From assembly GCF_014077005.1 (NCBI RefSeq), contig NZ_JACGVC010000044.1:434001-498000 (forward strand): a DNA stretch of 64,000 nt, read 5' to 3'. Shown here piece by piece: positions 36,127-42,778 of this stretch. The notes under the pieces are model-generated. The model was not told the origin of the DNA. It did not search any database and was given only the letters and a program-made list of their open reading frames with translations. The position numbers and the translations under genes were made by a program. How positions within the stretch are numbered: position 1 is the stretch's first letter; each line of letters opens with the position of its first letter. This DNA comes from Colwellia sp. MB3u-45. Its GTDB lineage: Bacteria; Pseudomonadota; Gammaproteobacteria; Enterobacterales; Alteromonadaceae.

Positions 36127-36339
36127 ATGGATGAACAACAGTTTGATCGTCTAAAAAGTGTCAGCGCTAAATCATTTAATGATCAAAAAGCCTTGATAAA
36201 AAAAGTGCTAGCGGGACGCGACATGGCATGTAAGCAATGTGGAACATTTATCAGAGTTACTTTGCCTGAAGACAAAAAAACCACAGGTTTATTCTGTGCT
36301 AAAGGTTGCACGAATATCGCTTTAGATTTTGTCATATAA
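36127..36339 (+). CDS. Small zinc-ribbon-like protein (70 aa)
   Basis: Not recognised by name. It has a charged helical N-terminal half and then a probable four-Cys metal site: CKQCG, then CAKGC about 20 residues later. A ribosome-binding site (aggttgag) lies a little ahead of the ATG. It follows the RraB-like gene closely, so an RNA-related accessory role is possible but only inferred from position. Confidence 0.7.
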   Translation: MDEQQFDRLKSVSAKSFNDQKALIKKVLAGRDMACKQCGTFIRVTLPEDKKTTGLFCAKGCTNIALDFVI

Positions 36340-36402: not shown

Positions 36403-37077
36403 CTATAAAAATGTTGCGATATCTGCAAGCGCTTTTTTTGTTGTTGCGTGATCTGGAATGGTCGCGTCTTCACTTGGATAACCAACAATAAGCAGCATAT
36501 AAGGCCGGCTATTATCATCACGACCACAAATTTTACTTAAAAATGACATGGGTTTTGGGGTATGGGTTAAGGTGACTAGACCGCTTGAGTGTAAGGCATT
36601 AATTAAAAAACCAGTGGCGATACCCACCGACTCATGCACATAATAATTGGTGTTTTTATCTGCTGTAGCAACCCCGCCTGTTTTCTCACTGAAAACCGCA
36701 ATTAACCAAGGCGCATGTTCTAGGTAAGGCTTTTTAGCATCGGTACCTAAAGGCTTTAACGCGTCTAACCATTCCTCACTTGCTCGGCCCTGATAGAAAT
36801 TACTTTCGTGGATCTCAGCTTGCTGGCGTATTTGTTTTTTAACGTCAATATTGTTGATTGCAACAAAATGCCATGGCTGATGATTAGCACCACTTGGCGC
36901 TGTTCCTGCTGCTTTTATACAGTTTTCAATGATCTGTTTTTCCACCAAGCGATCACTAAAACTGCGAACACTGTGGCGACGTTTAATATTTTCATAAAAT
37001 TCAGCCGAGCGCTGTAACATTTCTTCAGGGGGGTATTCAATATAATCGCTTAAAGGCGATGAGTTATGGGCCTTCAT
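36403..37077 (-). CDS. Nitroreductase-fold flavoprotein, iodotyrosine-deiodinase-like
   Basis: A 224-aa FMN protein of the nitroreductase superfamily. RRHSVRSFSDR and AAGTAPSGANHQPWHFVAI are the FMN-binding blocks. The lid region ESNFYQGRASEEWLDALKP...TDAKKPYL carries Glu, Tyr (Glu+4) and Lys (Tyr+21), in the same spacing as Glu157, Tyr161 and Lys182 that bind the halotyrosine zwitterion in human IYD. LVTLTHTP and VGYPSEDATIPD further match that subfamily. It is likely a reductive dehalogenase of halotyrosines (inference). The gene is monocistronic. Confidence 0.8.
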   Translation of the reverse strand: MKAHNSSPLSDYIEYPPEEMLQRSAEFYENIKRRHSVRSFSDRLVEKQIIENCIKAAGTAPSGANHQPWHFVAINNIDVKKQIRQQAEIHESNFYQGRASEEWLDALKPLGTDAKKPYLEHAPWLIAVFSEKTGGVATADKNTNYYVHESVGIATGFLINALHSSGLVTLTHTPKPMSFLSKICGRDDNSRPYMLLIVGYPSEDATIPDHATTKKALADIATFL

Positions 37078-37206: not shown

Positions 37207-37482
37207 TTAAAAATCGTGGTGTTTTTGATGAGATAACTTAATCAAATAGCTATTGAGCCCAGTATAGCGACGCGTGACTTCAGCGTTATACACGCCAATG
37301 AAAAGGAATAGGGTCATAATTAAGCTGATGGCGGGTAAACTCACCGTTTGAATATAGGCAGACAACAGTGTGGTGATAACCGCACCCACAACGCAATAGC
37401 TTAAGGTTATACGCAACCAGATGTATGTTGCCATTAATGCTTTCTCTAGATAGAGCGGCTTTATCGATGTGACTTTTTTCAA
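37207..37482 (-). CDS. Hypothetical small membrane protein (91 aa)
   Basis: Not recognised. Two hydrophobic segments (about 22-42 and 47-65) are followed by a basic/His-rich C-terminal tail (TRRYTGLNSYLIKLSHQKHHDF). The N terminus is basic. It lies upstream of nothing obvious on its strand, 129 bases away from the flavoprotein gene. Confidence 0.6.
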   Translation of the reverse strand: MKKVTSIKPLYLEKALMATYIWLRITLSYCVVGAVITTLLSAYIQTVSLPAISLIMTLFLFIGVYNAEVTRRYTGLNSYLIKLSHQKHHDF

Positions 37483-38830: not shown

Positions 38831-41800
38831 CTAAGCAATAAACTTACGCGCGTTGCGGAACATACGTACCCAAGGCGAATCTTCTTGCCATTCGTCAGGG
38901 TGCCATGAGTTAGCTACCGTGCGAAAAACGCGTTCAGGGTGCGGCATCATAATCGTTACGCGACCATCAGTGGTGGTTAATGCCGTAATACCGTCTGGCG
39001 AACCGTTAGGGTTTGCCGGATAAGTTTCAGTGATCTGACCATAGTTATCGACATAACGCATAGCCACTGTGCCAGATGAATTTGCGCTATCAATCGCGTC
39101 ATCAGAACTAAATTCTGCTCGACCTTCACCGTGTGATACGGCGATAGGCATGCGAGAGCCAGTCATACCATCAAAGAAGATAGATGGCGTTGGTTGTATT
39201 TCAACTAAACTAAAACGTGCTTCAAAGCGCTCTGATTGGTTTTGTACAAAACGAGGCCATGCGGCTGCACCCGGAATAATTTCTTTCAGGTTTGACAACA
39301 TTTGACAGCCGTTACACACACCTAATGAGAAAGTATTTTCACGTTCAAAGAATGTTTTGAACATGGCTTTGGCATCTTTGTTGAACAAGATTGATTTTGC
39401 CCAACCTTCACCAGCGCCTAATACATCACCGTAAGAGAAACCACCACAAGCCACTAAACCATTAAAGTCAGCTAAATCAGTACGACCAGATAAAATGTCT
39501 GACATATGCACATCAATAGCAATAAAACCTGCACGATCAAAGGCCGCTGCCATTTCTACATGGGAGTTAACGCCTTGCTCACGTAAAATGGCAATACGCG
39601 GATTGGTACCCTGTTGTGCATCTTTTGCAATTAAATGTGCAACAATATCTTCATTGATATCAAAGCTTAAGTCAGCGCTTAGGCCTGGGTCTTCGGTATC
39701 AAATTTAACAAAGTGTTCTTGCTGTGCACATTCTGGGTTATCACGCAGTGACTGCATTTTATAGGTGGTTTGTGCCCAAGTAGTACGGTAATAAGTACGA
39801 GAGTTTTCTAACACCACTTCGCCATCACGGCTAAAGCGGAGTGTATCTTCGTTATTGATACGACCAATATCAGTACAACAATCGGCAATACCGTACTCAG
39901 CAAAAACAGCCTGAATAGCATCAGCATCACTAGCAAGAATTTGAATTACTGCGCCAAGCTCCTCATTAAATAATACATCAACGTCGTTGCCTGATATGGA
40001 TGTTAACTGAGATAAGTCGATATCAACACCAGTATGACCAGCAAAAGCCATTTCAACCACAGTGGTGAACAAGCCGCCATCAGAAATATCATGGTAAGCG
40101 ATCAGTTTCTCATCACGTACTAAGGTTTGCATGGCATTGAAGAAAGCTTTTAAGGTTTCAGGACTATCAACATCAGGCGTTTCATTGCCTAACTGTTTAT
40201 AAACCTGAGCTAAACATGAACCCCCTAAACGTTGTTTACCTTTTGATAAATCAATGGCAATAAGTTGCGTCTCGCCTAAATCTATACGTAGTTCCGGCGT
40301 TACCGTTTTACGAATATCTTCAACAACACCAAAAGCGGTGATAATTAATGACATTGGCGAAGTAACAGATTTTTGCTCACCGTTTTCATCCCATTGGGTT
40401 TTCATCGACATTGAGTCTTTACCCACGGGGATAGTTAAGCCAAGCGCTGGACAAAGCTCTTCACCAATGGCTTTAACTGCTTCATATAAACCCGCATCTT
40501 CACCCGGATGGCCTGCTGGCGACATCCAGTTAGCTGAAAGCTTAATGCGATTTAAATCGCCGATATCAGTACCGGCAATATTAGTTAACGACTCAGCAAC
40601 CGCTAAACGCGCTGAAGCGCCAAAGTTTAATAACGCTACTGGGGTACGCTCACCTAATGACATAGCTTCGCCGTGGTAAGAGTCAAGTGCTGAAGCGGTA
40701 ACACCACAATCAGCCACAGGTACTTGCCATGGGCCAACCATTTGGTCGCGATTAACCATGCCAGTTACTGAGCGATCGCCTATGGTAATAAGGAAAGTTT
40801 TTTCTGCAACCGTGGGGAGTGATAAAATACGTTCTGCCGCATCAGCTAAAGTGATGTCAGCAACAGAGAAATTATCGCCAGCGGCCTTTGCTGTTTCCAC
40901 GTCCTTGAATATTTTAGGGGTTTTGCCTAATAACACTTCAAGCGGTAAATCAATCGGTGTATCGAGTTTATCATTACCGGCAAAGTGGGCATCAGTCACG
41001 GTTAAATGTAGCTCTTCGGTCGCACGACCAACGACAGAAAACGGTGCACGTTCACGATGGCATATTTGTTCAAAAGTCGCTAAATTTTTGTCTGATACGG
41101 CAATAACATAACGTTCTTGAGACTCGTTACACCAGATTTCATGTGGCGCCATGCTGCGTTCATCATTAGGGACGTTACGCAGTTCAAAAACACCACCACG
41201 ACCGCCATCAGCGACTAACTCAGGGAAAGCATTAGATAAACCACCTGCACCCACATCATGAATAAAAGCAATAGGATTTTCCTCTCCTAGCTGCCAACAC
41301 TTATCAATAACTTCTTGGCAACGACGTTCCATCTCAGGATTTTCACGTTGCACAGAAGCAAAATCTAAACTTTCAGCGGATTGACCTGATGCCATTGAAG
41401 AAGCCGCACCGCCACCTAAACCAATGTTCATTGCAGGGCCGCCAAGGGCAATTAAGTTAGCACCGACAACAATTTCACGTTTTTGTACGTGTTCATCACG
41501 AATATTGCCTAAGCCACCGGCCAGCATAATAGGTTTGTGGTAACCACGCACTTCACTGCCATTGAATGAATTCACTTGCTCTTCATAGGTACGAAAGTAG
41601 CCTAAAATAGCGGGGCGACCAAATTCGTTGTTAAATGCCGCGCCACCTAATGGGCCTTCGGTCATTATATCTAAGGCTGAAACGATACGATTGGGTTTGC
41701 CAAAGTCGGTTTCCCAAGGTTGTTCAAAACCGGGGATACGTAAGTTTGAAACTGAAAACCCGACTAAACCTGCTTTGGGTTTTGAGCCGATACCGGTTGC

Positions 41801-42778
41801 GCCTTCGTCACGAATTTCACCACCTGAGCCAGTTGCTGCACCTGGATAAGGAGAAATAGCGGTAGGGTGGTTATGCGTTTCAACCTTCATTAATATTTGA
41901 ATGTCTTCATGGTGATAACCATAAATATTAGTGTCTGGATTTGGAAAGAAACGACCACCTTTATTGCCGACCATAACCGCGGCGTTATCTTTGTAGGCAC
42001 TTAAGACAAAATCAGGATTGAGTTCATGCGTGTTGCGGATCATCTTAAACAATGATTTAGGCTGTTTTACACCGTCAATAGTCCAATCGGCGTTAAATAT
42101 TTTATGACGACAATGTTCTGAATTCGCTTGGGCAAACATGTACAGTTCTATATCGTGGGGATTACGGCCAAGTTTAGTAAAGTTTTCGAATAAATAATTA
42201 ACTTCGTCATCGGCTAAGGCAAGGCCGAGTTCACTATTGGCTCGAACTAAAGCGTTTTTACCGCCGTGTTCAATATCAATGCTGGTAAGTTCACCTGGCT
42301 CTGCACTAGCAAAAAGTGCGGTAGCGTCATTGAGATCAGTGAAAATGGCTTCCATCATGCGATCATGAATTAAATTATTCAATGTCGATTGTTGCTCTGT
42401 CGTCAATGGCACTGAATTTTCGGTACTGACATAATAAGCTAAACCACGTTCAAGGCGAATAACCTTAGTTAAACCACAGTTGTTGGCAATGTCGGTAGAT
42501 TTTGATGACCAAGGAGAAATAGTGCCAGGTCGTGGGGTTACTAAGATAAATTGCCCGACAGGCTCATGTTCTTCAATGGTCGGACCGTACTTAAGCAGTT
42601 GCTGTAAAACCTGAGACTCTTCAACGTTTAGTGCTGCTGAAATATGAGCAAAGTGGCTAAATTCAGCATAGATATCCGTGATGGGCAGTTGCAGCTCAGT
42701 ACACTGATTTAATAGCTTGTTTACTCTAAAATCAGAAAGTGCTGGCGCACCGCGAAAGGTTTTCATCAACATCGACAT
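38831..42778 (-). CDS. purL: Phosphoribosylformylglycinamidine synthase
   Basis: The large single-chain PurL (1315 aa) converts FGAR to FGAM with glutamine and ATP in purine synthesis. It has an N-terminal PurS-like domain ([15 protein letters not shown]), two AIR-synthase-like halves ([34 protein letters not shown] nearby) and a C-terminal class I glutaminase with Cys nucleophile in [13 protein letters not shown] and the His/Glu end PHPERVFR. Three in-frame ATGs open it (42778, 42772, 42766); the third lines up best with E. coli. It is divergent from mltF, as in many relatives. Confidence 0.97.

Follow-up and report, generated by a model that had tools for sequence, protein, structure and literature searches.

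Identification of the gene in the window

The window, that is, the whole stretch of 64,000 nucleotides of Colwellia sp. MB3u-45 DNA analysed here, harbors a gene whose product resembles iodotyrosine deiodinase (IYD), and which we therefore refer to as iyd. Translation of the window revealed a 224-residue frame on the minus strand, running from an ATG at 37077 to a stop codon at 36403, while the plus-strand frame over the same positions is riddled with stops. The preliminary description had given these coordinates exactly but left the strand unstated. The gene, the segments of it discussed below and its two flanking small frames are as follows.

36403..37077, minus strand: gene of the IYD-like FMN flavoprotein (P0001), supported by the open reading frame, Pfam PF00881 (E-value 1.3e-18) and a phmmer match to PDB 5ko7 (E-value 3.6e-65)
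36730..36807, minus strand: lid segment with Glu91 (codon 36805-36807), Tyr95 (36793-36795) and Lys116 (36730-36732), supported by alignment, lid-only search and conservation
36559..36561, minus strand: Thr173, in the column of human IYD Thr239, supported by phmmer alignments and invariant in 137 of 137 homologues
36871..36894, minus strand: loop Ser62-Gly-Ala-Asn-His-Gln-Pro-Trp69, placed by phmmer alignment
36127..36339, plus strand: small conserved frame of 70 residues, a convergent neighbor that is not in an operon with iyd; no Pfam match
37207..37482, minus strand: frame of 91 residues, upstream of iyd and codirectional with it; no Pfam match

The protein belongs to the nitroreductase superfamily, with a score of 68.2 bits against PF00881 compared to the Pfam gathering score of 23.5. 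The gene is under purifying selection, as the comparison with the 93%-identical orthologue of Colwellia sp. MB02u-6 gave a dN of 0.029, a dS of 0.248 and a ratio of ~0.12; in more distant pairs dS is near saturation. A promoter scan around the gene found one promoter-like site against 6.8 expected. A terminator scan found three terminator-like sites where 1.3 would be expected; two lie within the gene and one within the convergent small frame. Neither scan is informative.

Assignment to the IYD family

Sequence similarity search using phmmer against the PDB sequences revealed that the full-length protein is closer to the characterized IYDs than to the other nitroreductase-superfamily members of solved structure. 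The top match is the IYD of Haliscomenobacter hydrossis (hhIYD, PDB 5ko7), with an E-value of 3.6e-65; the entries 5ko7, 5ko8 and 5krd share one hhIYD sequence. Mouse and human IYD come second (4.7e-47 to 6.3e-45), followed by PDB 6pz0 at 1.2e-22, an IYD that we take to be that of Thermotoga neapolitana. Altogether, the top six of the 35 PDB sequences are all IYDs, and the remaining 29 match at 1.6e-10 or weaker. Few bacterial IYDs have a solved structure; the PDB matches include two such sequences, those of H. hydrossis and 6pz0.

Comparison with these enzymes showed that the protein shares ~47-48% identity with hhIYD over 215-219 aligned positions, at a similar length (224 against 228 residues). 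They differ in phylum and, in the loop described below, at residues 65-66. The identity to human and mouse IYD (IYD/DEHAL1; the ligand-bound entries 4ttc, 3gfd and 3gh8) is ~42-44% across the catalytic domain. Mammalian IYD carries an N-terminal membrane anchor, which is absent from the 224-residue Colwellia protein. The IYD of 6pz0 has the same fold but only ~29-32% identity, and its match begins at residue 27 of the Colwellia protein.

Nine NCBIfam models matched the protein, including those of BluB, FbiB and the oxygen-insensitive nitroreductases, all with scores far under their cut-offs. Thus BluB (5,6-dimethylbenzimidazole synthase) was rejected as an assignment at 48.3 bits against the TIGR02476 cut-off of 150, and so was an oxygen-insensitive nitroreductase of the NfsB/NfsA type, at 27.3 against the NF008275 cut-off of 227 and 18.8 against the NF008033 cut-off of 223. 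Overall, the protein is well supported as a further member of the already known IYD family, ordinary in kind. In a literature search, with subscription journals mostly outside its scope, none of the titles listed dealt with an IYD from Colwellia, Alteromonas or Pseudoalteromonas.

The substrate-binding lid and the flavin site

The preliminary description proposed an IYD-like flavoprotein that retains the substrate triad of the lid in identity and spacing. In the phmmer alignments, Glu91, Tyr95 (at +4) and Lys116 (a further 21 residues on) face the Glu, Tyr and Lys of hhIYD, human IYD and mouse IYD without a gap. To evaluate conservation, 163 loci were aligned and 26 duplicate sequences dropped, giving 137 distinct proteins. 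All three residues are invariant in 137/137, down to ~45% identity, as are Arg34, Arg38, Gly63, Ala64, Gln67, Pro68 and Trp69. Of these homologues, 96 came from scans that keep best hits (own genome, named genomes and family), so that close relatives dominate the set; it nevertheless extends to Bacteroidota, Actinomycetota, Deinococcota and Betaproteobacteria at 45-52% identity.

The spacing of the triad was rejected as a proof by itself. When the protein was shuffled 20,000 times, the pattern E-x3-Y-x20-K turned up at some position in 690 of the shuffled sequences, a frequency that makes spacing alone weak evidence; at the level of sequence, alignment and conservation support the triad more strongly. 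A search of the PDB sequences with the lid only (45 residues, 80-124) gave just five matches at E-values up to 1, namely that to hhIYD (3.2e-09) and those to four mammalian IYDs (0.22-0.94), the latter non-significant on their own. Neither BluB nor NfsA/NfsB was recovered by this search at E-values up to 1. The claim of an IYD-like protein with an intact triad is thereby backed by the full-length sequence, the lid-only search and the conservation, in addition to the model comparison given below.

A fourth residue, absent from the preliminary description, is Thr173. It faces the threonine that is replaced by alanine in the row of PDB 5yak, whose title reads "human IYD Thr239 mutant", and is found in the matching column of hhIYD and of the mammalian enzymes alike. 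The reported switch of IYD toward nitroreductase activity presumably concerns this threonine. Its invariance in the 137 homologues compared strengthens the reading of the protein as a dehalogenase.

The loop Ser62~Trp69 contains Ala64, which we take to correspond to the residue that contacts the substrate phenolate through its backbone NH in IYD structures. The two residues that follow (65-66; 36880-36885, minus strand) are Asn-His, compared to His-Lys in hhIYD and His-Thr in mammalian IYD. Asn65 is present in 134 of the 137 distinct homologues, and the other three, all actinobacterial or Deinococcus relatives, have a histidine. Asn65 beside Ala64 is possibly a clade marker.

The predicted structure resembles ligand-bound IYD

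We predicted the structure of the protein as a ligand-free monomer by AlphaFold2 from an alignment of 25 sequences. The best of the five models has a mean pLDDT of 83.5 and a pTM of 0.82, and the others range in mean pLDDT from 79.0 down to 42.9. In the best model the lid residues 91-120 are of moderate confidence (block-mean pLDDT of 66-77), and residues 131-150 are lower, at 57-58.

Structural similarity search using Foldseek returned IYD chains in all of rows 1-25, and hhIYD with bound monoiodotyrosine (PDB 5ko8) occupies the top two. In VIA-align 2, chain 5ko8_B is again the best match, with a Z-score of 24.3 and an RMSD of 2.0 over 215 aligned residues, so that the iodotyrosine-bound form of hhIYD fits the model best; 6pz0 follows with a Z-score of 21.5. 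BluB is the best non-IYD row, with a Z-score of 18.4 at ~20% identity, and the rows of Vibrio NfsB and NfsA have Z-scores of 18.4 or lower at 15-16% identity. Despite sharing the PF00881 superfamily and its fold, BluB, NfsA and NfsB are thus more distant from the model than the IYDs. Taken together, the predicted model adopts the IYD fold, including the lid.

Genomic neighborhood of iyd

In the window, iyd is flanked on one side by the convergent 70-residue frame and RraB, and on the other by the 91-residue frame, a universal stress protein and PurL. RraB, a pseudouridine synthase and a DHDPS-like gene were tested against Pfam in the window; the name PurL, like those of the MFP/RND-, ArsR- and rhodanese-like genes mentioned below, was read from sequence. 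The 70-residue frame adjoins RraB and has two cysteine pairs (CKQC and CAKGC). In 24 of 80 named loci, a cluster of such small frames occurs close to iyd, the membership of the window frame being judged by eye.

Two settings recur among the 80 named loci. In one, RraB, a small frame, the pseudouridine synthase and the DHDPS-like gene lie downstream of iyd (21-26 loci), and PurL lies upstream on the same strand in 19 loci, in 11 of them as the immediate neighbor; by blastp, homologues of all four (RraB, pseudouridine synthase, DHDPS-like gene, PurL) occur in 21-26 of the loci. In the other setting, whose cluster representatives come from Pseudoalteromonas and Psychrosphaera, an MFP/RND-like pair, ArsR-like and rhodanese-like genes lie mostly downstream (17-24 loci). 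Neither setting, among the 80 named loci, points to a pathway. The universal stress protein recurs by blastp in only three of the 80 loci, and a homologue of the 91-residue frame is likewise found in only three, which argues that the latter is not a conserved partner.

With frames called mechanically, 68 of the 80 loci have a downstream neighbor of opposite orientation, and 27 have a same-strand neighbor within 100 bp, of mixed identity. In 25 other loci, no neighbor family recurs in more than four. A conserved operon or pathway context was accordingly rejected across the 80 named and 25 other loci. The lack of a conserved operon and the single copy in the genome indicate that iyd is best described as a stand-alone gene, which upholds the earlier remark that it stands alone with no evident pathway.

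Four of the 25 distant loci (L144, L146, L148 and L156) also have a PurL-like gene on the iyd strand, separated from iyd by a few genes on its upstream side. The encoded proteins differ in length, with ~1,315 residues in the window (38831-42778) against 733-765 in the distant loci. The proximity of PurL to iyd may reflect either chance or a shared chromosomal neighborhood. At three loci of one family (f45), L144, L148 and L157, iyd is immediately followed by a same-strand gene for a membrane-protein-like product, with an overlap or a gap of up to 28 bp; these loci may represent a lineage-specific operon.

We also compared the occurrence of iyd with that of HPD, the dioxygenase of tyrosine degradation. 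The HPD model TIGR01263 is found in 268 of the 295 sampled genomes of the family. iyd occurs in 146 of these 268 and in 12 of the 27 HPD-negative genomes, showing no clear association when the lists are compared by eye, uncorrected for kinship; seven of the HPD-negative genomes were recognized from gaps in the genome numbering. Its presence in both groups suggests no visible tie between iyd and tyrosine catabolism of the homogentisate type.

Distribution and inheritance

The genome of Colwellia sp. MB3u-45 has a single iyd copy, and the closest named relative among the matches listed is that of Colwellia sp. MB02u-6 (93% identity). Including its own genome, iyd is present in at least 16 genomes of the genus (among the rows listed, with 117 no-match rows outside the listing), in 158 of the 295 sampled genomes of the family, representing 33 of 52 genera with one match per row listed, and in 46 of the 398 sampled genomes of the phylum. 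A scan of named genomes found at least 589 confirmed relatives, of which the best 80 were kept as the named loci; among the matches listed, the family members are mostly of marine genera and include many named isolates. The gene is carried by about half of the sampled family genomes, and a member from a cold-marine bacterium would bear on an ecological question, namely whether marine bacterial IYDs handle natural halotyrosines.

The preliminary description argued that halotyrosines from algae or sponges are plausible substrates in a marine organism. This rationale stands as plausible but is not diagnostic: homologues of 41-52% identity occur in non-marine bacteria, including the actinomycetes Streptomyces and Nonomuraea (one listed from soil), an insect-associated Paraburkholderia and Deinococcus, which weakens it, and no link to HPD is visible.

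In a quick tree, midpoint-rooted and with several long branches, the window gene clusters with sequences from its own genus, within a clade of Gammaproteobacteria (SH-aLRT 100; 107 of 137 rows). Relatives are carried by nine of 72,556 plasmid records (E-values up to 1e-20), all below 60% identity, five of which were inspected at their loci, and 50,697 phage records gave five weak matches of 26-37% identity. The tree placement and these counts fit a mainly vertical inheritance. A mobile or phage origin was rejected on the plasmid, IMG/VR and phage counts together with the tree placement.

Three cases stand apart. Two IMG/VR contigs of 17 and 22 kb (L167 and L168) encode IYD relatives of 51-52% identity and may be bacterial fragments. 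One genome (G505) has two divergent, nearly full-length iyd copies, on G505:C7 and G505:C3 (L123 and L157), with 57% and 52% identity to the query. In another (G662:C12:152871-153526), iyd is split into two pieces, perhaps by a frameshift.

Proposed function

The sequence and the model together make it highly probable that the gene encodes a bacterial halotyrosine dehalogenase of the IYD type, and dehalogenation of halotyrosine by the Colwellia protein is likely. By analogy with the known IYDs, we propose that the protein would form a homodimer with FMN at the interface, and that the halotyrosine would stack on the FMN. Glu91, Tyr95 and Lys116, together with the flavin, would hold the ammonium and carboxylate groups of the substrate, upon which the lid would become ordered over the site. 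The phenolate would be held by the backbone NH of Ala64 and the ribityl 2'-OH of FMN, and Thr173 would hydrogen-bond to the flavin N5 and favor stepwise one-electron transfer. The reduced FMN would then expel the halide to leave tyrosine, with electrons presumably supplied by an NAD(P)H-dependent reductase encoded elsewhere. In the cell, the enzyme might make scavenged iodo-, bromo- or chlorotyrosine usable, or clear tyrosine damaged by halogens. A cold-marine member of this kind would offer a native host in which a deletion phenotype could reveal the function of a bacterial IYD.

Alternatively, the protein could be a nitroreductase or quinone reductase of general type that depends on NAD(P)H and has simply kept an IYD-like lid. 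As a PF00881 member it has a fold common to nitroreductases, and in the three annotated plasmid regions inspected, from Aureibacter, Deinococcus and Streptomyces, its relatives bear the name "nitroreductase family protein". Against this, IYDs are by a wide margin its nearest relatives in the PDB, the triad and Thr173 are invariant in 137/137 homologues, and its scores fall far short of the cut-offs curated for the nitroreductase equivalog models. Moreover, the genome holds two other PF00881 proteins, both without the triad, one of which is PRK10828-like (179 bits against a cut-off of 183 for this NAD(P)H nitroreductase model). We thus consider a general reductase improbable. We give an equally low probability to a dehalogenase or reductase of the IYD fold that naturally acts on another zwitterionic phenol, for instance a halogenated derivative of tyrosine or some other aromatic amino acid, and for which halotyrosine would be only a surrogate. 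The broad spread over marine and non-marine bacteria, the lack of pathway linkage and the Asn65/His66 change adjoining Ala64 would all be compatible with such a substrate; however, the triad that reads the ammonium and carboxylate of tyrosine is fully kept, and nothing points positively to a different substrate.

Within the preferred reading, halotyrosine dehalogenation, a more speculative and rather doubtful extension concerns the large proteobacterial IYD group, which is marked by Asn65, one copy per genome, no conserved operon and no visible HPD link. This group might dehalogenate for its own sake, either detoxifying halogenated tyrosine produced by algal or animal haloperoxidases or recycling iodide and bromide, rather than feeding tyrosine catabolism. 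If so, halotyrosine turnover would be common, though unrecognized, among marine copiotrophs, and would make a real contribution to the cycling of organic iodine and bromine.
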